Assembly: GCF_900141705.1 (NCBI RefSeq)
Contig: NZ_FQYM01000028.1
Location: forward strand, 1 to 33,870
Direction: 5' to 3'
From: Fibrobacter sp. UWP2
GTDB taxonomy: Bacteria > Fibrobacterota > Fibrobacteria > Fibrobacterales > Fibrobacteraceae
Length of the DNA stretch: 33,870 nt
In this document: positions 12,271-33,870 of the stretch, one piece after another
Layout: every line of letters starts with the position of its first letter
How positions within the stretch are numbered: position 1 is the first letter of the stretch
Notes under the pieces: generated by a model
Database searches by the model: none
Seen by the model: the letters and a program-made list of their open reading frames with translations, nothing else
Told to the model about the DNA's origin: nothing
Program-made: the position numbers and the translations under genes

Positions 12271-14352
12271 TTATTCCTTGACGCAGCGGATGCTGCAGGA
12301 CATGGCTTTGCGGCTGGTCTTTGCCAAGAAACCCTCCTTGTTTTGGCGGGTCAGCATAAAGAATGTCGGGTTGCCGTCATTGTCCTCTTCTGCTGTGCAG
12401 AACTGCGTGCTCTCGGTGATGTTGCTGAAGTTGCCGTTGGCGTTGCGGCTTCCGGCGGGGTACGCGTTAAAGCCGATGAGGTCCTTGCCATGGGGATCCA
12501 GGGAACCCTGAATCCAACCGCTGGTGGAACCGAAAATCTTGAAATCTGGTTCCTTGGGGTACCAGGACCTGCCGAAGGCGGCGGTGTTCTCCCATTCGGT
12601 GAGCGTGGGGAGGCGCCAGCCCTCGGGGCAAATGTCCTTTTTTAGCTTGATGTTGTCTTCCCTGCGGTAAAGGCGGCCGTAGGTTTCGCAGTCTACGGTG
12701 GTGTCGGCATAGCACCAGCTGGAATCCGTTTTGAAGCGCAGGTTATGGGACATCCAGATGAGGCTGTCGATGCCGATGGTCATGTAGGTGGAACTGTCAC
12801 GGGCGTCGATGAAGGAGTCCACGATCATGGAGTCGGCAGAAAGTTTCCAGGAGAATCCGTTGCAGTAGTACAGGGAGTAGTTGACCTGGGCGTAGCCTTC
12901 GTTGCCCTTTTTGCAGATTCTGCCGATGGTGCGCTCCAGTTCGCCTGCGTTGTTGAGCTCCCCTCCGGTGCAGAAGTACCACTTGGTCGTGTCGATGGAG
13001 CCGCGTACCAGGGTGTCGCTTGTGCCGCACTGGGTAACTTGACGTTCCTGTTCCAGAAGGCTGAGCTCGCGGGTGGTGTCCCGCGTGGCGTTGCTGTCGC
13101 AGAACTGGATTGTTCCCGAGTCGGGCAATACCGTGAGGATGACGTTTTTGCTGTTGCAGAGTTTTTCTTCTTTGAGCGCCGTTTCTATTACATAGATGAA
13201 AGACCAAACGTTGACGATCCTTGTTGTGTCGCGGACGGGGTTGCAGTAGTAGTAACCCTGCGGAGTGCTCTTGATTTCATTCTTGTTGCTGGTGACGCAA
13301 GGTCCCTTGGCTGTGTCAGGATCAAAAAAATCTACCCAGCCGCCGTAGAGGGAGTCGTAAATGTAGTAGGAAGTTTTGAGGTAGTCGCCTTTGCGGATCT
13401 CGCCGTCATGGCCGGGTTCCCAGCCCACGGTGTCATTGTAAGAAAGGGGCATTTCGAGCCACCCTGAATCTTGAGAGCAGTAAAGGTGCTGGTTTTTGAT
13501 GGCTCCGTAGGGCAACTCGTTCTTTTTGATTTCGCCTATGTTGTCTTTGCCACAGGGACCCAGTTTGAATGCGTCGCCAAAAAAATCGATGCTCTTTTCG
13601 AAGCAACCATTTTTGATTTGCATGTCGTTCAATTCGCGGTGGCGCAATGCGGTCATGGCTTTAACGGAGTCGTTTTTCCATTCGCCCTCTTTGGTGAACG
13701 TGGAGTCGTGCCAAGTGCCGGTGTAGTTAAAGTAACATTCAAAGAAATCCGCAAATTCCTTGGAATTTACCTTGTCTTTGAGGAGGTAGGCCTTTTGGAT
13801 GCTCTCCCGGGTCAATGCCAGTGCGGAGTCGTAAGGGACACCTTTTTTAAGGTTCTGGATTAACAGTTCGCCCTCGATGGTGGTCAACTGCGAAGGCATA
13901 ATGGGCTGCTTATCCAGGTTGGCGACTATGGTTACGAAGGGGATGACGCTGGACGTGTAACCATCGCCATAGTAGGTGCTTTGGACCTTCCCGGAGATTT
14001 TGATGAAAGCGTAGGGCGAGCGGAGCTTGATTCCCTCAAAGAGGAACGTGGAGTCGGTTTCTTTTTTTTCGGTGAACTCCCTCCCAGTCAAGTCGAACGA
14101 TTCGTCCAGCTCGTACAGGATGGCGGTTTCGTCTTTGAATTTTAGACGTTGGATGGCGATGGCAACGTCGTATGTCTTGTATTCTGCTTTGGAGGTGTCC
14201 TTGCTGGAATCCGCCGTGGAATCTTCGCTGACGGGGCCCTCGATGCGGTCGGTGGATATGGTGTCGTTGCTGCAGGCGCTAAGGGCGATGGCGCCGGCGA
14301 AAGAGGCCGCCATGAGGCTTGCGAAAGCGTTTGTGCATTTTGAATTTTTCAT
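12271..14352 (-). CDS. Fib_succ_major-domain lipoprotein
   Basis: A 693-residue lipoprotein: signal peptide with lipobox LSAC, then a Ser/Asp/Thr-rich spacer (about 30-55). The middle part (about 55-250) is mixed, without a family I recognise. Cys-rich modules of the type C...N.GEI....YC....W follow (about 265-500; for example CGKDNIGEI and LYCSQDSGW). The C-terminus (about 511-693) is the Fib_succ_major domain (TIGR02145): IDARDSSTYMTIGIDSLIWM, CPEGWRLPTLTEWENT and the terminal IRCVKE. Function of this domain is not established; members are surface or envelope proteins abundant in Fibrobacter. It lies 9 bases downstream of a paralogue (14362-16488), and the two are likely co-transcribed. GGGGGT precedes the ATG. 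Confidence 0.85.
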   Translation of the reverse strand: MKNSKCTNAFASLMAASFAGAIALSACSNDTISTDRIEGPVSEDSTADSSKDTSKAEYKTYDVAIAIQRLKFKDETAILYELDESFDLTGREFTEKKETDSTFLFEGIKLRSPYAFIKISGKVQSTYYGDGYTSSVIPFVTIVANLDKQPIMPSQLTTIEGELLIQNLKKGVPYDSALALTRESIQKAYLLKDKVNSKEFADFFECYFNYTGTWHDSTFTKEGEWKNDSVKAMTALRHRELNDMQIKNGCFEKSIDFFGDAFKLGPCGKDNIGEIKKNELPYGAIKNQHLYCSQDSGWLEMPLSYNDTVGWEPGHDGEIRKGDYLKTSYYIYDSLYGGWVDFFDPDTAKGPCVTSNKNEIKSTPQGYYYCNPVRDTTRIVNVWSFIYVIETALKEEKLCNSKNVILTVLPDSGTIQFCDSNATRDTTRELSLLEQERQVTQCGTSDTLVRGSIDTTKWYFCTGGELNNAGELERTIGRICKKGNEGYAQVNYSLYYCNGFSWKLSADSMIVDSFIDARDSSTYMTIGIDSLIWMSHNLRFKTDSSWCYADTTVDCETYGRLYRREDNIKLKKDICPEGWRLPTLTEWENTAAFGRSWYPKEPDFKIFGSTSGWIQGSLDPHGKDLIGFNAYPAGSRNANGNFSNITESTQFCTAEEDNDGNPTFFMLTRQNKEGFLAKTSRKAMSCSIRCVKE

Positions 14353-14361
14353 TTTTACCCC

Positions 14362-16488
14362 CTAGTCCTTTACGCATCGGATGGCCGCCTTGACCTTGGG
14401 CGAACTGTACTTGATGTTTGTCATTTCGGCGTCCTTCAGGGTCATGTACTTGAACGAGAAACCTGAGGTGTCGGACTCCGTGGTCCACAGGTAGGCTATG
14501 CCTTCGTTGGCGGAATACCTGTTGTCTTTGCCGACGACGCCCGTCCCGTCCAGAGACAGGTTGAAGTCGTCGTTGTTGTAATTCTTGTCGAACGGGTCGT
14601 AGTTCCAGTGCGATTTCCCGCGGAGGCTTGCCCCAACGGTGTTAGACACCTTGTACTTTTGGGCGAAAACAAATAGGGTGTCCCACTCTGCCATCGAGGG
14701 GATGTGGTAGCCTTCGGGGCAAATCCCGTGCACCTTTTCGGAATCGCTCGGGGCTCTCCAGCCGGAATCGGTGGCCACGTTCATGGCGGCGTTCCAGTTG
14801 TAGAGGGTGCCGGGGCTTTCGAGTTGCAAAATGGGGTCGCTGTTGGTAGAGAAAATGTTGCCCTTGAGGTTCGGATAGGCGGCGCTGTCGCCAAAGTCCA
14901 GGTTCTGGGCCATCCAGCGCTGGTTTCCGATGCCGGTGGTGCGGTAGACCTTGCCGTCGCGTTCGTCTATGAGGGCGTTGGCTGCGGAGTCGCCCGAGGT
15001 GAACTTCCAGGAGCCCGCATCGCAAACGAACAGGGTGTAGCCCATCTTGATGGTGTCCTTGGGCGAGGCCTTGGTGCAGGGCTTGTCTAGTGCCGTTTCC
15101 CTGACAGTGAACTGGCGGGCGGTATCGCCTTCGCAAACAAACTTGGTGGTGGGGCTGGATTCGCCGGTAAAGACTTCTCCGTCCTTGGTGCATGTAGCCC
15201 GCTTTGCCTCGCATTCGTCTTTGGTCAGTTCGAGCCAACCACTTCTCTCGCACTGGTAGCACATTTTACCGCTAAAGCGGACTTCGCCGATGTTCTTGTC
15301 TACACAGGCGCTCTTGAGCCCGACGTCCACCTGCTGGGCCTTGTGCCACTCATCGTTCTTGTAGAAATAATAGGTGTCTTTGCAGTTCTCGCTCTTGAGC
15401 AGTTGCGTAGGGTCTGCCGGGGCCTCGTTTAAGAACGTGGCGAAGTCCACATTGGAGCAGATTTCTTCGTGAGCCCACCCTGTGGAATCGCAACGGAAAA
15501 ACTGCTTGTTCCCGTAGATGGGCGAACAGGCGGATTCCTTGTACTTGCCCCGGTTGTCGCTATCGCAGGTGCCCAGGTTCAGCTTGACCTTCCAGAGTGA
15601 GTCCAAAAAGTCCTTCGCCTTTTTGAGCTTCACCTGGTAGCCCCATTTTTTTGAGTATTCAGAGAGCTTGAAACAGTCGCGGTCGGTGGCTTCGCGGTAT
15701 GCCCAGTTCCACATGGTGTAGAGACTGGAAAGAACGATGGTGTCTTTGGTAAAGGCTCCGCTGTAGGGCTTGTCGCCCTCGTTTAGAGAACCAAGTGGGG
15801 TGAACAGGACTTCAGCGGCCAGCAGGTAGTAGTTGTTCTCGTTGGAGTCGGCGAAGTTCATGCTTTCGAAGTCCTCCTGGAGTTCTTCCATCAGCAAAAT
15901 TTCCTTGAGTTCCTTTGCCGCCTGGGCGCGGGCTTCCTTGAAGGACATGCCTTTTTCCATGAGGAACTTGGCCCGGATGGTTTGCATGTCGGTAAAACTG
16001 CTGGTGTTGAGGGCGTTCGTTATGCGGAGGTCCAATATGGTAAAGCTAGAGGACTTGGGGTAATCCCACTCGTTGCATACAGACATCATGGAGCCAGAGA
16101 CTTCGACGCTCACCATGGGGGACTCGAACTTGGCGTCTTCGATGGTGAAGGTTCCTTGGTCGTCCAGAATGTTGGTTTTGTAGACCGTTCCTGTTTGCTT
16201 GAGGGCGCTGTCGAGTTCGCGGACAACGACCTCGGTCCCAACTTTGTAGTGCCCTGCGCTAATGTGGCCACGATAGGTGACGGCGACGCCGGCTTCCCAG
16301 TCGGAGGCGCTTGTGGAGGAGGTGTCGGAGGCAGAGTCGGAGGGGGTGTTCTCGGTGGAGTCTGCGGGAGTGTCCGGGGCTTCGACGATTTCCACCGTTT
16401 CGGTGCTGTTGGAATCACTACAGGCGGCAAGCCCCAAAACGAGGACGGTACCAGTCAATAAAAAAATATTTCTTGTCATGGTTTTCAT
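14362..16488 (-). CDS. Fib_succ_major-domain lipoprotein (paralogue)
   Basis: A 708-residue lipoprotein with lipobox LAAC, a long acidic Thr/Ser spacer (about 22-65), an N-terminal domain of unknown family (about 65-300) and Cys/Trp-rich modules (about 300-500; for example ACVDKNIGEV and CYQCERSGWLEL). The C-terminal Fib_succ_major domain (about 505-708) carries YRTTGIGNQRWMAQNLDF, ICPEGYHIPSMAEWDTLF and AIRCVKD. Sequence similarity to the next gene shows tandem paralogy. The start is notable: two in-frame ATGs (16488 and 16479) sit in opposite arms of a 15-bp hairpin, with no Shine-Dalgarno sequence upstream. The gene is 27 bases after the citrate synthase stop, so it may be read through from that gene or controlled by the hairpin. 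Confidence 0.85.
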   Translation of the reverse strand: MKTMTRNIFLLTGTVLVLGLAACSDSNSTETVEIVEAPDTPADSTENTPSDSASDTSSTSASDWEAGVAVTYRGHISAGHYKVGTEVVVRELDSALKQTGTVYKTNILDDQGTFTIEDAKFESPMVSVEVSGSMMSVCNEWDYPKSSSFTILDLRITNALNTSSFTDMQTIRAKFLMEKGMSFKEARAQAAKELKEILLMEELQEDFESMNFADSNENNYYLLAAEVLFTPLGSLNEGDKPYSGAFTKDTIVLSSLYTMWNWAYREATDRDCFKLSEYSKKWGYQVKLKKAKDFLDSLWKVKLNLGTCDSDNRGKYKESACSPIYGNKQFFRCDSTGWAHEEICSNVDFATFLNEAPADPTQLLKSENCKDTYYFYKNDEWHKAQQVDVGLKSACVDKNIGEVRFSGKMCYQCERSGWLELTKDECEAKRATCTKDGEVFTGESSPTTKFVCEGDTARQFTVRETALDKPCTKASPKDTIKMGYTLFVCDAGSWKFTSGDSAANALIDERDGKVYRTTGIGNQRWMAQNLDFGDSAAYPNLKGNIFSTNSDPILQLESPGTLYNWNAAMNVATDSGWRAPSDSEKVHGICPEGYHIPSMAEWDTLFVFAQKYKVSNTVGASLRGKSHWNYDPFDKNYNNDDFNLSLDGTGVVGKDNRYSANEGIAYLWTTESDTSGFSFKYMTLKDAEMTNIKYSSPKVKAAIRCVKD

Positions 16489-24569: not shown

Positions 24570-24605
24570 AGGAAATATGAATTTAGATTAGGCTAACTTT
24601 TGAAA

Positions 24606-24625
24606 CGGGGTGGACCCCGATTTTT
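24606..24625 (+). promoter_or_regulatory. Small terminator-like hairpin in the maeB leader
   Basis: CGGGG TGGA CCCCG followed by A and T5, just before the AAAGGAG ribosome binding site. It could act as an attenuator or mRNA-stability element; the stem is only 5 bp. Confidence 0.3.
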
Positions 24626-24638
24626 CAAAGGAGAAAGT

Positions 24639-26963
24639 ATGAGCATGGATTTAAAGGAAAAGGCGCTGCAATACCACGCCATGGGCAAGCCGGGCAAAAT
24701 CGAGATTGTGCCCACCAAGCCGCACAGCACCCAGACCGACCTCGGCCTGGCCTACACGCCGGGCGTTGCCGCCCCGTGCCTGGAAATCGAGAAGGACAGC
24801 AATCTCGCTTACGACTACACGGGCCGCGGAAACTTGGTCGCGGTGATTAGCAACGGTACTGCCGTGCTTGGTCTCGGCGATATCGGCGCCCTTGCGGGCA
24901 AGCCTGTGATGGAAGGCAAGGCGCTCCTGTTCAAGATTTACGCCGGCATCGACGTCTTTGATATTGAAATCAACGAAAAGGACCCCAAGAAGTTCATCGA
25001 GATTGTGAAGGGAATCGCCCCCACGTTCGGCGGCATCAACCTGGAGGACATCAAGGCTCCGGAGTGCTTTGAGATCGAGGACACACTCAAGGCCGAGCTC
25101 GACATCCCAGTGATGCACGACGACCAGCATGGTACCGCGATTATTTCTTCGGCGGGCCTTTTGAACGCCATCGAGGTCGCGGGCAAGAGCATTCGCGACG
25201 TGAAGATGGTGGTGAACGGCGCCGGTGCCGCCGCGAGCGCCTGTACCAGGCTGTACCTCTCGCTCGGCCTCAAAAAAGAGAACCTTGTGATGTGCGACAG
25301 CAAGGGCGTGATTCGCAAGGACCGTAAGGGTCTCACCGAAGCCAAGGCCTTCTTTGCGACCGACCGTACCGACATCGAGACGCTCGAAGACGCTATGAAG
25401 GGCGCCGACGTGTTCGTGGGCCTCTCCAAGGGGAACATTCTCACCCGCGAGATGGTGCGTAGCATGGCCGACCAGCCGATTGTCTTTGCGCTTGCGAACC
25501 CGACTCCCGAAATCAGCTACGAAGAGGCGATGGCGAGCCGTGGCGACCTGATTTTTGCGACAGGCCGCAGCGACTACCCGAACCAGATCAACAACGTGAT
25601 TGGCTTCCCGTACATTTTCCGCGGCGCCCTGGACGTGCGCGCCACCTGCATCAACGAGCACATGAAGCATGCCGCCGTGCGCGCGATTGCCGCCCTTGCC
25701 CACAAGCCCGTGCCCGACGTGGTGAACATCGCCTACAACTCCCAGCGATTCACCTTTGGCAGGGAATACCTGATCCCGAAGCCCCTGGACCCGCGCTTGC
25801 TCACGGAAGTTTCCATCGCCGTGGCGAAGGCCGCCATCGAGAGCGGCGTGGCCCGTAAGCCCATTACCGACTGGGACTCCTATTACGACAAGCTCCGCGA
25901 CATGATGGGCTACGACAACAAGCTCATCCGCCAGTTCAGCGATACGGCGCGCAGCAATCCCAAGCGCGTGGTGTTTGCCGAGGGCGACAACCTCAACATG
26001 CTCAAGGCCGCCGTGCAGGTGAAACTCGAAGGCGTGGCACACCCGATTCTGCTCGGTAACGCCGAACGAATCCAGATGATGGCGAGCAAGGAACAGCTCG
26101 ACCTTACGGGCATCAAGATTGTGAATCCGCGCTCTCCCGAGGAATTCGAACGCCGTCGCCGCTATGCCGAAATTTACGCCCAAGAAAACGGCCGTAACGG
26201 CGTGGTGTTCGAGGAAGCCCGTGACGACATGTACGAGGTGAACCACTTTGGCATGATGATGGTGAAGGAGGGCGATGCCGACGCTTTCATTACCGGCGGT
26301 TATTCCAAGTATTCCGAAACCATCGAACTTGCAAAGGAAATCATCGGCATCCGCGAGGAATACAAGCACTTCGGCGCCATGCACATCTTGAGCACGCGCA
26401 AGGGAACGTTCTTCTTGGCCGATACGCTGGTGAACCGCGACCCCGATGCCGAAACGCTTGTGGACATCGTGAAGCTCACGCATGATGCGGTGCGCTTTTT
26501 TGCCCACGAACCGGTGATGGCGATGCTCAGCTACGCGAACTTCGGTAGTGATAAGGAAGCCGCCCGTGGTACGGCCAACAAGGCCCGCGACGCGGTGAGG
26601 ATGATTCACGAGCAGTTCCCGGACTACGTGCTCGATGGCGAAATGCAGGTGAACGTGGCCTTGGACAAGGAACTGCGCGACTCCAAGTACCCCTTCAACA
26701 AGCTCAAGGGCCAGACCGTCAACACGCTCATCTTCCCGTGCCTTTCCTCTGCAAATACGACTTGCAAGATGCTCCTCGAGATGGGCGTGGGCGAGTCCAT
26801 CGGTCCCGTGCAGATGGGCCTGAACAAGCCGGTGCACTTTACCGACTCCGACGCTTCCGTGCACGACATCTTCAACCTGACCGTCGCCGCCGTCATCGAC
26901 GCGATTGTGCAGGAGAAGAAGGACGAAGAGAAGAACCGCAAGAATTTGGACCGTCTCTGGTAA
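24639..26963 (+). CDS. maeB: NADP-type malic enzyme with phosphotransacetylase-like domain
   Basis: I use the ATG at 24639, 7 bases after AAAGGAG; a TTG frame from 24600 runs through the leader hairpin. The 774-residue product is close to the E. coli MaeB length (759). The N-terminal malic domain carries [10 protein letters not shown] with Tyr39, [15 protein letters not shown] with catalytic Lys99, [13 protein letters not shown] and [10 protein letters not shown]. The NAD(P)-binding domain shows [11 protein letters not shown]. From about residue 430 a PTA-like domain follows ([47 protein letters not shown] and [10 protein letters not shown]). The PTA part of such fusions usually has no transferase activity but controls the enzyme through acetyl-CoA. 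It makes pyruvate, CO2 and NADPH from malate. Confidence 0.96.
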
Positions 26964-27066: not shown

Positions 27067-29235
27067 TTACTTGAGGTTCACCTTGTGCATGAACTTCTGG
27101 GAGCCCTGGCGGATCACCAGGAAGGCGGCGCCGCGGAACCCGGTGGAGAGTTCGACGGTGTTGACGCCGCGGATTGCGTCGAAGTTCTGCTGGACCACTA
27201 CCTGGCCGAGGCTGTTCATGAGCATGACGCTGGCACGGCCGGCCTTGGTGGCGTTGAACGTGGCGGCGATGGAGCCGCCGTTGACGCTCAGGTGGAGCTT
27301 GCTCGCGGCGACTGCCGGCTTGATGGCGTCCGTACCGCTGAGTGCGACGACCTTGCCGGTGGCGGTGCCTGTGAGGTCAGACTTTTTATCGAAGTCGTCG
27401 ATGATTTCGGTGGAACCGTCGGCCTTGATGCCCTTGATGTAGTCAAAGGTGATAGTGCCTGTGACCTGCGTGCCGTAGAGGTTCAGACCGATGGCGTTTG
27501 CTTCGTTGAGATCCGTGGGTTCGTTGCGGAAATCTTCCCACTTGACTTGGAAAGTCTGGAAGGAGCCGGTGAGTTCCTGGTCGGCCTGCTCCATAACGGG
27601 GGCGTCGAACCAAGCCCAGCTGCTGCCGGTCATCATGAAGAGGTCCATGGAGGTCCAGCCGTAACCGCCGCAGCCGTCACTTGTTCCGGTGCAGGGTCCT
27701 GCAGAGGCGACGGAACCTTTCAGGCGGACTTCGATGCCGACGTACTTGGAGAGATCCTTGTTTGCGCCGCTGAGGTTGACGCGGACCGTGCCCACTTCGC
27801 TGGAGTCGGAAGTTACTGTCTGGTAAGTCACCTGCACGCCCTTGCCGCTTCCGGTTTCGGGGACTTCGTTTTCGTTCACCAGGCTGTCAAGGTTGCTCTG
27901 GTTGTTGCCTTCCTGGCCGTAGGCCTTCTGGAGAGCATTCAGAACATCCGGGTCGAGAATGCTGTAGGTGCCCTTCTGGCGGGTAATGATGGTCATATTG
28001 CCGTCGTCTTCGGCACCGGTATCCCAGACGTAGGGGATAATGCCGTTGGCCTTCGCGTTCTTGGCGACTTCACCGTAGAAGAGGGCGCGGCCCTGCAGGT
28101 GGAGCTTGAGGTTTGCGGCGTCGGTAATCTGGCCGGTGCGCTTGATGGCACCGAGTTCGCCGATAATCACGGGAATGCCCTTGTCGCAGAACATGGTCTT
28201 GAGTTCACCGAAAGCGCTCTTGATCTGGTTCGGAGTACCGAGGGCGCTGTTGTCGATGCTGTTGGTGTACACGTTCCAGCCCATGTTGTGAGTCTTGTCG
28301 GTGGTGCTTTCGAGACCGGTGTAGTAGTAGAACTGTGTGCCCCAATCTTCGTCCTTGGTCATGAGGGAATACTGGTACGGGTAGTAGTGCACTTCGGCCA
28401 TCATGTAGCCGGCGCCTGCCGGGTCGGTGGGCCAGTTCTGGTTCAGCATGGAGGCCATGTCCATTTCGGTACGCGGGGCCTGCACAATGAGGGTGCGGGT
28501 GGCATTGTTGCCGCCGGCGCTACGCACGGAGGTGATGAAGGCGTCGTAGTAGCCCTTCAAAACCTGCATACGGGTGTTGTCAAATTCCCACTGGGTACCG
28601 TTCCACGGGTCGTTCACGCCCGGTTCGTTGGCGCCTGCAAAGAGGAGGTGCTCGTCGTAGTCCTTGAAGTAGGTTGCAATCTGCTTCCAGTAGGCGGCCT
28701 GGCGGGCCTTGGTGGTGGCAGAACTGTTGGCAATATCACCGGAACCGCTGCGCGGATTGGCGGTGCCGTCGTAAACGCGGTCTTCGAGCCAGCCTTCGTC
28801 CCAGTGCGAGTTCAGCACCACGTACATGCCTTCGGCGATGATCATGTCCACCACGTCCTTGACCTGGGCGAGCCAAGCGGCGTCAATGGTCGGGGTGGTA
28901 AACGAGGCGTCCTTGCCTACGTGCTTGTAGGTGGAGTTGTCAGCGGTGCCGCCGTTAGCAGCGATATCCTTGGCGAGGGCGTCGGAATGTGAATACCAGG
29001 CGCAGGGGATACGCACGGTGTTGAAGCCGGCTGCCTTGATGGCCTTGATGTAGCCGGCGGTCGGAAGCGGGTTGCCCCATCCGGTCGGGTTTTCGGGCAC
29101 TTCCATGGTGTTGCCGATGTTGTAGCCCATGCCCATGCTCTCGACGAGTTCGCTGGACTTAGGGAGGGCGAATGCGGCGGTGGCGGCCACGAGGCCGAAG
29201 CTACATGCGAATCCAAACATCATTTTTGCGTTCAT
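27067..29235 (-). CDS. GH5 cellulase with carbohydrate-binding and C-terminal sorting-like domain
   Basis: A 722-residue secreted protein. The signal peptide covers about 1-24 (MNAKMMFGFACSFGLVAATA). The GH5 barrel spans about 30-430, with MGYNIGNTME, FNTVRIPCAW, acid/base Glu204 in FAGANEPG and nucleophile Glu360 in VIIGELGA. A beta-rich module about 460-635 resembles a carbohydrate-binding domain (YVGIEVRLKG, WEDFRNEP, ITFDYIKGI), of a type I cannot name. The last 65-70 residues (NSLGQVVVQQNFDAIRGVN to FMHKVNLK) resemble type IX secretion C-terminal domains. Substrate is probably beta-1,4-glucan. AAGGAG precedes the ATG, and ATATAGATTA lies 28 bases upstream. Its first 37 codons are exactly reused by the chimeric gene at 29354-30061. 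Confidence 0.93.
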   Translation of the reverse strand: MNAKMMFGFACSFGLVAATAAFALPKSSELVESMGMGYNIGNTMEVPENPTGWGNPLPTAGYIKAIKAAGFNTVRIPCAWYSHSDALAKDIAANGGTADNSTYKHVGKDASFTTPTIDAAWLAQVKDVVDMIIAEGMYVVLNSHWDEGWLEDRVYDGTANPRSGSGDIANSSATTKARQAAYWKQIATYFKDYDEHLLFAGANEPGVNDPWNGTQWEFDNTRMQVLKGYYDAFITSVRSAGGNNATRTLIVQAPRTEMDMASMLNQNWPTDPAGAGYMMAEVHYYPYQYSLMTKDEDWGTQFYYYTGLESTTDKTHNMGWNVYTNSIDNSALGTPNQIKSAFGELKTMFCDKGIPVIIGELGAIKRTGQITDAANLKLHLQGRALFYGEVAKNAKANGIIPYVWDTGAEDDGNMTIITRQKGTYSILDPDVLNALQKAYGQEGNNQSNLDSLVNENEVPETGSGKGVQVTYQTVTSDSSEVGTVRVNLSGANKDLSKYVGIEVRLKGSVASAGPCTGTSDGCGGYGWTSMDLFMMTGSSWAWFDAPVMEQADQELTGSFQTFQVKWEDFRNEPTDLNEANAIGLNLYGTQVTGTITFDYIKGIKADGSTEIIDDFDKKSDLTGTATGKVVALSGTDAIKPAVAASKLHLSVNGGSIAATFNATKAGRASVMLMNSLGQVVVQQNFDAIRGVNTVELSTGFRGAAFLVIRQGSQKFMHKVNLK

Positions 29236-29263
29236 AGAACGACTCCTTTAGTTGCTTTTCCCC

Positions 29264-29273
29264 TAATCTATAT
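29264..29273 (-). promoter_or_regulatory. Shared upstream motif ATATAGATTA of the GH5 gene
   Basis: ATATAGATTA on the minus strand is 28 bases before the start at 29235. It is repeated at 30090-30099 by duplication, and independently occurs 27 bases before the GH5 gene starting at 31868. Likely a promoter element. Confidence 0.5.
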
Positions 29274-29291
29274 TTCGGCTCCAAAACCAGG

Positions 29292-29325
29292 AAAAATAAA
29301 GCACCGACCTCAAAAAAGTCGGTGC
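29292..29325 (-). terminator. Terminator after the chimeric GH5 gene
   Basis: GCACCGAC/GTCGGTGC 8-bp stem, 9-base loop, followed on the minus strand by TTTATTTTTC. It lies downstream of the stop at 29354 and upstream of the promoter motif of the next GH5 gene. Confidence 0.88.
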
Positions 29326-29353
29326 AATGCTTTCAACAAATGTAAAGTTTCGT

Positions 29354-30061
29354 TTACTTTACAGCTATTTTTATACGGTTTTTGCCGCTTTTGGCGATGT
29401 AGAGGCCCTGATGCAGTCCTTCGAGGCTCATGGTGGTGGCGGTTGTGCCGCCGGCAGCGTTCACCTTGCGAACCAGGTTGCCCTGCATGTCAAAGAGTTC
29501 GATGCCGCTTGCCGCGTTGCCCCTGAGCAGGTTCCCTTCGCGGGTGATGGCGGCGTCAAGGCCGTTTTTGACCACGTCCACGAAACCCATGTAGCCGCAT
29601 TCCGGAATCATGGCATCGCAAGGGTCTGTAAAGGAACTTGAGGTCGGCGCAATATTGCTGCTCGATACCGGCGCAATTGCGGAACTGCTAGATACAGGAG
29701 CGATTCCGGAACTGCTAGACGGCGGAACGACCATGCTGCTGCTCGATGCTGGCACGCTGCTGCTCGATGCCGGCTCCGTTCCTCCGCCCGTGATAAAATC
29801 TTCCACGTGCGTCGCGCCCGTGTTCACGTAGTTGCCGAGGTTGTACACGCTGCGCATCGCATTGATGACGTCGGTCTCGAGAACCTTGCCCACGGGGGAA
29901 CTCTGGCGGCGAATGTATGCCATGTTGTCGTAGCCGGAATCGCTCTCGTTGCCCATGCCCATGCTCTCGACGAGTTCGCTGGACTTAGGGAGGGCGAATG
30001 CGGCGGTGGCGGCCACGAGGCCGAAGCTACATGCGAATCCAAACATCATTTTTGCGTTCAT
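29354..30061 (-). CDS. Chimeric truncated GH5 gene made by tandem duplication
   Basis: A 235-residue open frame. Residues 1-37 (ending ESMGMG) equal the start of the GH5 cellulase at 27067-29235; residues 38-235 equal residues 365-562 of the GH5 cellulase at 30180-31868. The joint lies in the repeated GCCCATG and is in frame. The product has a full signal peptide, the last part of the barrel (NESDSGYDNM onward), the Ser-rich linker (about 97-143) and the C-terminal domain, but neither catalytic Glu and almost none of the barrel. It cannot be a GH5 enzyme. It keeps a ribosome binding site and upstream motif copied from the first gene, so it may well be expressed. It may be a non-functional by-product or a secreted anchor-like protein. 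Confidence 0.88.
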   Translation of the reverse strand: MNAKMMFGFACSFGLVAATAAFALPKSSELVESMGMGNESDSGYDNMAYIRRQSSPVGKVLETDVINAMRSVYNLGNYVNTGATHVEDFITGGGTEPASSSSVPASSSSMVVPPSSSSGIAPVSSSSAIAPVSSSNIAPTSSSFTDPCDAMIPECGYMGFVDVVKNGLDAAITREGNLLRGNAASGIELFDMQGNLVRKVNAAGGTTATTMSLEGLHQGLYIAKSGKNRIKIAVK

Positions 30062-30089
30062 AGAACGACTCCTTTAGTTGCTTTTCCCC

Positions 30090-30099
30090 TAATCTATAT
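30090..30099 (-). promoter_or_regulatory. Shared upstream motif ATATAGATTA of the chimeric gene
   Basis: Duplicated copy of the element at 29264-29273, 28 bases before the chimeric gene start at 30061. Confidence 0.5.
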
Positions 30100-30117
30100 T
30101 TCGGCTCCAAAACCAGG

Positions 30118-30151
30118 AAAAATAAAGCACCGACCTCAAAAAAGTCGGTGC
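30118..30151 (-). terminator. Terminator after the intact second GH5 gene
   Basis: Exact copy of the 29292-29325 hairpin at the 826-base offset. It lies after the stop at 30180 and probably is the original terminator of this gene. Confidence 0.88.
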
Positions 30152-30179
30152 AATGCTTTCAACAAATGTAAAGTTTCGT

Positions 30180-31868
30180 TTACTTTACAGCTATTTTTAT
30201 ACGGTTTTTGCCGCTTTTGGCGATGTAGAGGCCCTGATGCAGTCCTTCGAGGCTCATGGTGGTGGCGGTTGTGCCGCCGGCAGCGTTCACCTTGCGAACC
30301 AGGTTGCCCTGCATGTCAAAGAGTTCGATGCCGCTTGCCGCGTTGCCCCTGAGCAGGTTCCCTTCGCGGGTGATGGCGGCGTCAAGGCCGTTTTTGACCA
30401 CGTCCACGAAACCCATGTAGCCGCATTCCGGAATCATGGCATCGCAAGGGTCTGTAAAGGAACTTGAGGTCGGCGCAATATTGCTGCTCGATACCGGCGC
30501 AATTGCGGAACTGCTAGATACAGGAGCGATTCCGGAACTGCTAGACGGCGGAACGACCATGCTGCTGCTCGATGCTGGCACGCTGCTGCTCGATGCCGGC
30601 TCCGTTCCTCCGCCCGTGATAAAATCTTCCACGTGCGTCGCGCCCGTGTTCACGTAGTTGCCGAGGTTGTACACGCTGCGCATCGCATTGATGACGTCGG
30701 TCTCGAGAACCTTGCCCACGGGGGAACTCTGGCGGCGAATGTATGCCATGTTGTCGTAGCCGGAATCGCTCTCGTTGCCCATGTCCCAGAGGATCGGGGT
30801 GAGCCCGTACTGCTTTGCGGCAGAAACCACGTCCTTGTGCCACTGCACGCGGCCCTGCTTGTGGAGGTTCAGGTCGTTGCCGCTCAGTTCCGGTGAGCGC
30901 ACGTTGGCGCCGAATTCGCCGACAATGACCGGGTAACCCTTGTCCACGTAGTTCGTCTTCATCTTGGCGAACTGTTCCTGCGGGTGGACGATGCTACCGA
31001 GCTTGGAATCTACAGAACCTGCCCAGGCGTTGTAGCCCGCGTTGCGGACAGGCTCGCTAGATTTTTGGTAGTCGCCGTAGTAGTATTGCGGAAAAACCTG
31101 CTTGTCACCCCAGGTATCTTCTTTAGTCATGAGCGTGTACTGGTACGGGTCGTAGTAGTGCACCTCGAACATCAGGTAGCCTGTTACCTTGTCCTTAGGG
31201 AACGTGCTTACGGGCGCGTTCGCGACAGACTTGTCGATGTCGGTGTTGAGGCCCTGGATAATGAGCGTGCGGGTGGCGTTGTTCCCGCCGGTGGCGCGCA
31301 CTGCGTCAATAAACGTCTGGTAGTAGTGCATCAGCGTGCTTACATGCTGGGCCGTCCAGGGGTCCACATTCGGGCCGGGTTCGTTCGCACCCGCAAAAAT
31401 CAGGCGCTCGTTGTAGTTCTTGAACTTGTTCGCAATCTGCGTCCAGTACGTCTTCATCTTGTTGTCAACAGTCGAGTTGACGCTCGTGCCGATGTTTGTC
31501 TGGAACCAGCCGCCTTCACCCTCGTGGTGAATGTTCAAGATGGTGTAGAGGCCCGCGCGCATCGCATAGTCGACGACAGTCTTCACGGAATCGAGCCATG
31601 TTTCGGTGACCTTGCCGCCGTTCGTGTGGCTGTCCCAGGCGCAGGGAATGCGTACGGTGTTGAAGCCTGCCGCCTTCACGGAGTCGAGCAAGGCCTGCGT
31701 AGGGAAGGGGTTGCCCCATAGGGTCGGGTTGTTCGGCACTTCCATCGAGTTCCCGATGTTAAAACCCATGCCCATGTTCTTCTGGAGCTCCGCCGCTGTC
31801 GGGAGGGTGGCGGCATTTGCTGTAATTACAGTCGCGGCGATGCCGAGAATAAGTCCAAACCTTTTCAT
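30180..31868 (-). CDS. GH5 cellulase with Ser-rich linker and C-terminal domain
   Basis: A 562-residue secreted enzyme. The signal peptide is about 1-19. The GH5 barrel (about 25-415) has MGFNIGNSMEVPNNPTLWGN, FNTVRIPCAWDSH, acid/base Glu163 in FAGANEPG, FEVHYYDPYQ and nucleophile Glu318 in VIVGEFGAN. A linker of SSSS blocks separated by Pro/Val/Ala runs from about 424 to 470, typical of Fibrobacter glycosidases. Two Cys (475 and 482) follow, then a C-terminal sorting-like domain about 505-562 (ASGIELFDMQGNLVRKV, GLYIAKSGKNRIKIAVK). It probably hydrolyses beta-1,4-glucan. The barrel is clearly related to the neighbouring 722-residue GH5. GAGG precedes the ATG; ATATAGATTA lies 27 bases upstream. 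Its last 198 codons are duplicated in the chimeric gene. Confidence 0.94.
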   Translation of the reverse strand: MKRFGLILGIAATVITANAATLPTAAELQKNMGMGFNIGNSMEVPNNPTLWGNPFPTQALLDSVKAAGFNTVRIPCAWDSHTNGGKVTETWLDSVKTVVDYAMRAGLYTILNIHHEGEGGWFQTNIGTSVNSTVDNKMKTYWTQIANKFKNYNERLIFAGANEPGPNVDPWTAQHVSTLMHYYQTFIDAVRATGGNNATRTLIIQGLNTDIDKSVANAPVSTFPKDKVTGYLMFEVHYYDPYQYTLMTKEDTWGDKQVFPQYYYGDYQKSSEPVRNAGYNAWAGSVDSKLGSIVHPQEQFAKMKTNYVDKGYPVIVGEFGANVRSPELSGNDLNLHKQGRVQWHKDVVSAAKQYGLTPILWDMGNESDSGYDNMAYIRRQSSPVGKVLETDVINAMRSVYNLGNYVNTGATHVEDFITGGGTEPASSSSVPASSSSMVVPPSSSSGIAPVSSSSAIAPVSSSNIAPTSSSFTDPCDAMIPECGYMGFVDVVKNGLDAAITREGNLLRGNAASGIELFDMQGNLVRKVNAAGGTTATTMSLEGLHQGLYIAKSGKNRIKIAVK

Positions 31869-31989: not shown

Positions 31990-33870
31990 CTATCGGTCTT
32001 TTACGCAGCGGACAGAATTCATAGATGATAGATGATACTCCCTCATTTCCGCAGATTCTTTACCAATTCTGAATATACGAGAATTGCTGTTTTGGGTATC
32101 AATGAACTTTACATAATAATAATCGTATTTGCCGGGTATGGTTTCCGAAGGTGCTCGCGTCGAGGTCCAAAAATAAGCTGCTGCGTCATTTGATGTGACG
32201 TCAGCGGTCCACATGTCAAGGAGCTCTTCATAATTTCCTGTGGGAAGGATGGACATTTCTGAATTGTCTTTGCCTTTTCTATAGTACCAGCCATATTTAG
32301 ACATCAAGAATAGCGCTGACGTGTCTGCGCAATAGTTTGTATTGTTGTTGAATGCCGTTTCATTTGCGCATCCTCCAATGTAAGACATACTTAAACTAGC
32401 AAACAACGTTTTCCACTCTGTTGTATCGGGCAGGTGCCAGCCATCTGGACAAACAGTTTGTGCAGTGATAGCTGAGTAAAAACGACCGCTGGACAAACAA
32501 TGTGCTTCACTAAAATGAGGGCATCTGCTGCTATCTGGTGTCCCGATTTTGTAATTGAGGTTTTGCAGCATCCACTCCTTTGCGCCAAATCCCTTCTTGT
32601 AGTATTCGTGACCATCGCGTTTATCAGTAAAAATATAATCATAACCAACAGGTTTGATTCCCATCGAAATCGCCATCCAGGCTTTGGCTGGAATGTTCCA
32701 ATTCCATTGTTCCATCGATATAAAATTCCCTGCCCCCGCGCACGTCATGAGTTCTCCATTAACCCTTAACGTGTCGCCAATGTAAATTGAAGTACAAATT
32801 CTATTAAGGATGATTTCACTTGAAGTCAACAGACGATAATGCCGGGAATCTGTAGAATCACAAACGTATTGCAGTCCGTTGGTTCGTCCGTATATGATTA
32901 AACTTTCAGAACCGGGTTGACCACACGCGACGACTGCCCCGGTAGTCTGGTTGATGTAATCTGGAGCTAAAAGCCAGCGATAAGTGGTGTCGGAATTTTC
33001 GGCGTCGCCCTTTGAACAAAGGTAATAGTTATCATTAAAGGGAATCTTGCTTAGATCTCCGCTTTTGCTTATGTTTGCCCCGCTGTTGTTTTGTTTTTCG
33101 GCGCAAGCCCTGCCGCGTTTCGGGTCCAGTTTCTTGAATATCGAATCCAATGCCGTGCCATGCCGCCAGTGGTTCCCGTCAAAAACATAGACAAGGTTCG
33201 AGTTTACTTTGCCGTTGCGCACGTCCCCTTCGACGAAGTTTGTATCAAGAGCATCCCAACCAGCGGTATCCTCTTCAATGTTGATTGATTTACGCCAACT
33301 CTGCGAGTCGCATGTGTACCAAAGACCATCGGAGAGCTCGGCGATTTCACCATTGCGCTTAATAGTACAGCCACGTTGGCCGAAGGTGTCGTAAGCGTTG
33401 CCTGCACGCCATTGTTGAGTGGTTTGCTCGTATACATACGGGGCGTGCGTTTCTGCTCCTTCTTCTACATCTCCGTCATTGTCGGCAGTTATGAACTCGC
33501 GCGTGTCTTTTTCATAATCGGTGGACGGTCGCCAATTTCCGTCTTCACAGGTGTAGAAAATTCTGCTGATGACAGTATCTTTCACTACAATGCCGTTTCG
33601 CGTGCTCTTTTCGCCTTCGGTGCAACCTGTGCCAAGGATGGCGTCCAGCTCAGTGCCTTCCTTCCATTTGTTGTCACTCAGGTGGAATACGTATACGCTG
33701 TCTGTGTAGGTGCCGCGGCTTACAGCGCCGTCCTTTTTTGCTGGTTTCCATCCGTATGTATCGTATTCTATGGGCTTGGCGCTTTGCCATGCGCGGTCTC
33801 TGCAAATGTACCATTTCTTTTCGGCAGAGTCTTGCGCAATGTTCCCTTCTTTAGAACTGGTGCAACCCAG
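31990..33870 (-). CDS. Fib_succ_major protein with tandem Cys/Trp repeats (5' end outside window)
   Basis: The frame stays open from the stop at 31990 to the window edge, giving at least 626 residues with the N-terminus missing. The C-terminal 216 residues are a Fib_succ_major domain: DKRDGHEYYKKGFGAKEWML, VCPDGWHLPDTTEWKTLF, YFWTSTR and VRCVKDR. The upstream part consists of tandem modules of about 80-88 residues. Each begins GCT, continues with an NGxI segment, WYxC and W, then a second half with DGxVxxG, YVF, W and GTxLD. The first Cys of successive modules is at 3, 83, 168 and 256 of the visible part; later modules are less regular. The function is unknown; surface location is inferred. 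Base composition looks more AT-rich than in the rest of the window. Confidence 0.85.
   Translation of the reverse strand: MGCTSSKEGNIAQDSAEKKWYICRDRAWQSAKPIEYDTYGWKPAKKDGAVSRGTYTDSVYVFHLSDNKWKEGTELDAILGTGCTEGEKSTRNGIVVKDTVISRIFYTCEDGNWRPSTDYEKDTREFITADNDGDVEEGAETHAPYVYEQTTQQWRAGNAYDTFGQRGCTIKRNGEIAELSDGLWYTCDSQSWRKSINIEEDTAGWDALDTNFVEGDVRNGKVNSNLVYVFDGNHWRHGTALDSIFKKLDPKRGRACAEKQNNSGANISKSGDLSKIPFNDNYYLCSKGDAENSDTTYRWLLAPDYINQTTGAVVACGQPGSESLIIYGRTNGLQYVCDSTDSRHYRLLTSSEIILNRICTSIYIGDTLRVNGELMTCAGAGNFISMEQWNWNIPAKAWMAISMGIKPVGYDYIFTDKRDGHEYYKKGFGAKEWMLQNLNYKIGTPDSSRCPHFSEAHCLSSGRFYSAITAQTVCPDGWHLPDTTEWKTLFASLSMSYIGGCANETAFNNNTNYCADTSALFLMSKYGWYYRKGKDNSEMSILPTGNYEELLDMWTADVTSNDAAAYFWTSTRAPSETIPGKYDYYYVKFIDTQNSNSRIFRIGKESAEMREYHLSSMNSVRCVKDR

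Follow-up and report, generated by a model that had tools for sequence, protein, structure and literature searches.

Short homologies at the joints of spontaneous rearrangements have been documented in Salmonella, where a survey left duplication joints of 7 and 9 bp unverified, whereas most of those of at least 11 bp were verified (PMC3411829). Fusions formed at the join point of a duplication are an established class in bacteria (PMC11111574) and in flies (PMC5460883). The locus described here, from Fibrobacter sp. UWP2, shares with the spontaneous duplications of bacteria (PMC3411829; promoter-capture duplications, PMC11111574) a head-to-tail repeat with short homology at its joint and a new join-point fusion, the originals being left intact. 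It differs from most described bacterial duplications in that the unit is much shorter (826 bp) and was found in a draft genome, not selected. As in the duplication fusions of flies (PMC5460883), the duplication boundary brings the 5' part of one gene up against the 3' part of the next, but the present case is bacterial, has no introns, and yields a fusion from which the catalytic domain is missing. The two parent genes have the signal peptide, GH5 domain and sorting-like tail of the Fibrobacter GH5 endoglucanases with basic or T9SS-type C-terminal domains (PMC3079729, PMC6851124), whereas the fusion is without the GH5 catalytic domain.

Structure of the duplicated locus

The window, meaning the whole stretch of 33,870 nucleotides that was analysed, was compared with itself. 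Two segments were found to match over 833 bp without a mismatch at an offset of 826, and identity at this offset fell to background on either side of the match (Table 1). The copies abut without a spacer and overlap by the 7 bp GCCCATG, which is carried by each of the two original endpoints of the duplicated segment as well as by the joint, and which on the coding strand reads CATGGGC, corresponding to Met-Gly codons. As a 30-mer, the joint occurs once in the genome. The 833-bp match is the sole exact repeat of at least 60 bp in the window, and no exact repeats of that length were present inside 20 other 20-kb stretches (400 kb) of the genome. The chance of finding at least 7 bp of homology at random breakpoint pairs in the region was about 8e-4. 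An earlier note on this DNA had described a match at a constant offset with a shared GCCCATG and had read it as a tandem duplication with 7-base microhomology; the match is exact, the copies are adjacent and direct, and both statements hold.

Table 1. Features of the duplicated GH5 locus and of related tandem arrays (window coordinates unless a locus is named).
Feature	Coordinates	Strand	Evidence
Upstream parent, intact 562-aa GH5	30180..31868	-	ORF; Pfam Cellulase 39-366; linker; T9SS-like C-terminal domain
Intergenic copy 1 (upstream parent to fusion ORF)	30062..30179	-	Terminator-like hairpin 30127-30151
Fusion ORF, 235 aa	29354..30061	-	ORF list, alignment to parents, Pfam, structure model
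Intergenic copy 2 (fusion ORF to downstream parent)	29236..29353	-	Terminator-like hairpin 29301-29325
Downstream parent, intact 722-aa GH5	27067..29235	-	ORF; Pfam Cellulase 41-408; weak T9SS-like C-terminal tail
Copy of duplicated unit adjoining upstream GH5	29951..30783	-	Exact 833-bp identity with 29125-29957
Copy of duplicated unit adjoining downstream GH5	29125..29957	-	Exact 833-bp identity with 29951-30783
Join point, 7-bp short homology	29951..29957	.	Repeat comparison; 30-mer unique in genome
Horse MAG tandem GH5 arrays	L041 5252-13760; L042 5255-11662; L043 5258-13513

The order of transcription is 562-aa GH5, fusion ORF, 722-aa GH5, and a malic enzyme/phosphotransacetylase gene (24600-26963, plus strand) lies beyond the last of these. 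In the copy adjoining the upstream GH5, that gene contributes its 3' part, beginning at codon 363; then come the 118-bp intergenic region and codons 1-37 of the downstream gene, which here form the start of the fusion gene. In the copy adjoining the downstream GH5, the 3' part is supplied by the fusion gene, and the intergenic region is followed by codons 1-37 of the downstream gene, here intact. Alignment agreed with the earlier description of the unit as the 3' part of one GH5 gene plus the first 37 codons of the next. The two intergenic copies (118 bp each) are identical and were duplicated whole, and each contains a terminator-like hairpin of 11 pairs followed by a T tail. The duplicated terminator that had been proposed is thus represented in both copies. 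The promoter proposed along with it is still plausible, but a simple consensus scan returned no sigma-70-like promoter, a consensus that may not suit this phylum.

Several other features of the window were recorded. The code for the Ser-rich linker (window 29658-29774 and 30484-30600) contains short repeats in tandem (21 and 27 bp), a likely source of the change in linker length between relatives. The C-terminal domain of the upstream GH5 (window 30180-30480) is far more diverged from its relatives than the catalytic domain, which would fit either fast evolution or replacement from outside; acquisition of the C-terminal half from another gene of this genome was considered on this ground, but a search for a close copy elsewhere in the genome gave none. 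Three genes encoding a Fibrobacter succinogenes major domain (FISUMP) are located on the minus strand at 12271-14352 and 14362-16488, which are adjacent, and at 31990-33870, which is cut by the contig end. No Rfam families were matched in the window.

Predicted product of the fusion ORF

Residues 1-37 of the fusion are residues 1-37 of the 722-aa GH5, and residues 36-235 are residues 363-562 of the 562-aa GH5, the two residues at the joint being common to both parents. The frame is open across the joint, with start and stop supplied by different parents. The N-terminus is hydrophobic in translation, MNAKMMFGFACSFGLVAATAAFA, and the sequence across the joint contains ESMGMGNESDSGYD. The contribution of the upstream GH5 runs from the end of barrel strand 8 onward and comprises the end of the barrel, the Ser-rich linker, and the T9SS-like C-terminal domain. 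The in-frame gene of 235 codons that the earlier note had reported is accordingly present, and alignment confirmed its parentage: one enzyme supplied the putative signal peptide, the other the linker and C-terminal domain.

The description of this gene as a chimeric cellulase was not sustained. The catalytic motifs of the parents, NEPG and GEFG/GELG, are absent from the fusion, and Pfam Cellulase gave no match to it. Since the barrel and both catalytic glutamates (acid/base and nucleophile) of a GH5 enzyme are missing, the fusion is not a cellulase. An AlphaFold2 model was confident only at residues ~170-235, which form a small all-beta domain at the C-terminus, and most of the chain was predicted to be disordered. 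Por_Secre_tail matched the fusion with E ~1e-4, just below its curated cut-offs. Foldseek searches with the C-terminal domain returned weak matches that included RgpB and other C-terminal domains of T9SS cargo (best E overall 2.6e-3; none below E 1e-3). SprA, a T9SS core protein, was detected above cut-off in the same genome (G000:C6), and a tail of this type, the BTD/CTD, has been proposed as a T9SS signal for F. succinogenes enzymes (PMC6851124). The product is likely an exported non-catalytic stub made of a putative signal peptide, a short GH5 remnant, a linker and a T9SS-like domain, both its export and its lack of function being predictions from sequence and structure model. The fusion ORF would be expected to bring no benefit to the cell.

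The locus in related genomes

Relatives of the locus were collected by a protein search of genome contigs with the upstream GH5, which gave 36 loci, nearly all from Fibrobacter, and the fusion protein was searched in six frames against 80 Fibrobacter genomes, one genome per species. L026, L027, L028 and L038 each carry one upstream GH5, one downstream GH5 and one malic enzyme, in that order; in the first three the upstream parent is 79-82% identical and the downstream parent 59-81%. A single-copy pair of upstream and downstream GH5 genes is also present in L046 and G032, and the malic-enzyme gene adjoins the pair in relatives wherever the contig extends that far. The intergenic regions of the relatives vary in length (~0.2-0.5 kb), and in the relatives just named they contain no second copy of the unit. 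The comparison of the locus that had been proposed as a check, made here with relatives of other species, gave one copy of each parent gene in the six just named.

A full-length match to the fusion was obtained in 1 of the 80 genomes, that of the window itself. Strong matches in other genomes begin at fusion residue 35 and form part of longer GH5 frames, with two exceptions that are short open frames, one a broken upstream-type gene (G079:C30) and the other at a contig edge (G007:C68). On these 80 genomes the fusion was rejected as an old feature of the genus. Because the relatives are single-copy and the fusion is confined to one genome, the duplication is, judged from these sequences, a derived state in the lineage of the window.

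The broken gene belongs to the Fibrobacter MAG RUG14497 (L046 7001-8420; L083 2480-3983, same contig), in which the 377-aa first part of the upstream-type GH5 leaves the frame and the last part resumes in another. In Fibrobacter MAGs from horse faeces, 3-4 tandem GH5 genes occupy the locus that holds two in rumen relatives (Table 1). These arrays likewise consist of neighbouring GH5 paralogues, but their genes are whole and diverged, and they contain neither a fusion stub nor identical repeats. The GH5 locus may also grow by duplication over longer time scales.

Origin and age of the duplication

The reading that we regard as highly probable is a real spontaneous tandem duplication of 826 bp between adjacent GH5 genes, formed at a 7-bp homology and yielding a non-catalytic fusion ORF. 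A segment between two adjacent divergent GH5 cellulase genes would have been duplicated spontaneously in head-to-tail orientation, its ends joined through the direct homology CATGGGC (coding strand), for instance by replication slippage or template switching, or by illegitimate recombination. The extra fusion ORF would have been placed between its parents at the join point, with its reading frame preserved by chance. As the segment starts within the upstream gene and stops within the downstream one, neither parent is disrupted and the region upstream of each is preserved. The 7-bp joint fits a RecA-independent duplication at short homology, and it is from such features that we infer the mechanism. 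Homologous recombination between the GH5 paralogues was rejected, since the joint links codon 363 to codon 37, which are non-homologous sites in the barrel; one endpoint lies near strand 1 of the downstream barrel and the other where strand 8 of the upstream barrel ends, and at such non-equivalent places of the two genes unequal crossing-over is not the cause.

The absence of differences in 833 bp gives 95% upper bounds on age of ~9, 3.6 and 1.8 million generations at assumed mutation rates of 2e-10, 5e-10 and 1e-9 per base, respectively, gene conversion, which can keep copies alike, being ignored. The earlier note had called the event very recent, which is too strong, as zero divergence allows up to ~2-9 million generations. 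Short tandem duplications in Pseudomonas (2.6-3.3 kb) are lost at only ~1e-4 per generation (PMC12607827); given such slow loss and the age bound, the duplication need not be a laboratory event.

Assembly evidence and alternative readings

The genome is a draft assembly of 72 contigs, apparently built from short reads. Its contig ends overlap by ~95 bp, or by 393 bp in the case of one repeat family, and overlaps of ~95 bp are characteristic of de Bruijn assembly at k=95. Positions 1-95 of the window recur at the end of C55 (5255 bp) and where C37 begins; the contig break at the window start thus falls in a repeat, possibly a collapsed rRNA operon. Assemblers normally prune chimeric edges of low coverage. 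The joint is spanned by 87 95-mers that are found nowhere else in the window, and because a graph with k=95 cannot join sequences on a 7-bp overlap, these 95-mers must come from reads. The reads would accordingly have contained the joint at a depth sufficient to escape pruning, and we infer that it is physically present in the cells. Fibrobacter isolates from herbivores have been assembled using SPAdes with -k 25,55,95 from inserts of 300 or 550 bp (PMC6291624), and the window probably comes from this data set or a similar one. As the 833-bp repeat is longer than such inserts, its copy number, and any mixture of duplicated and single-copy forms, are beyond the assembler.

This bears on the alternative that the unit is amplified to at least three copies or is polymorphic in the culture, the assembler having written a loop as two copies. 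Short reads cannot count the copies of an 833-bp tandem repeat, and short tandem duplications are easily amplified and are usually maintained at a few copies (PMC12607827). There is no direct counter-evidence, but two copies are the simplest reading, and we consider the alternative possible though on balance unlikely.

An artefact of assembly or library construction is less probable still. Chimeric molecules, or contigs wrongly abutted with an 833-bp overlap, would have produced the repeat from a single-copy genome. The draft, apparently short-read state of the assembly and the length of the repeat relative to the published insert sizes (PMC6291624) are compatible with this; library chimeras do occur, and 7-bp duplication homologies seen in single Salmonella reads failed verification (PMC3411829). 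At high coverage, a chimera from the library would be indistinguishable from a real duplication. Against this, the sharing between contig ends is not arbitrary in length, being ~95 bp or, in the one repeat family, 393 bp; homology of 7 bp is rare in random chimeras; a chimeric edge at low coverage would normally have been pruned; and no second repeat was found in the 400 kb sampled, so that nothing points to a recurrent artefact. Of the assembly artefact that the earlier note had offered as its alternative, what remains is the copy number, which the k=95 graph does not fix; the 7-bp joint itself such a graph cannot invent.

A function for the fusion, as a new gene kept by selection for a secreted surface protein or a decoy of the secretion machinery, is very improbable: the fusion is in frame, with its own copy of the upstream region, a putative signal peptide and a T9SS-like C-terminal domain, in a genome that encodes a T9SS core protein, and the BTD/CTD is a proposed T9SS signal of F. 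succinogenes enzymes (PMC6851124), but it has no catalytic domain, is mostly predicted to be disordered, occurs in one genome only, and its copies offer no divergence on which selection could be tested.

Implications

The spontaneous duplication preferred here belongs to a well-known class of mutation and is an ordinary one, seen in one genome only. The earlier interpretation as gene birth would need expression and retention of the fusion. There is a slight chance that the duplication is real, fixed and expressed, in which case the export parts of two cellulases would have been combined into a new surface protein that is secreted but non-catalytic; if true, this would be passenger loss occurring in nature, with a catalytic enzyme converted in one step into a linker-plus-anchor protein. 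In practice the locus is a trap, as gene callers will report an extra small secreted cellulase-derived protein that rests on a repeat which short reads cannot count. If physically confirmed, the locus would be a clean snapshot of neighbouring paralogues giving rise to an in-frame fusion with neither parent lost. It could then serve as a marker for duplication at short homologies in a non-model phylum, and as a test case for the keeping or losing of export signals alone.
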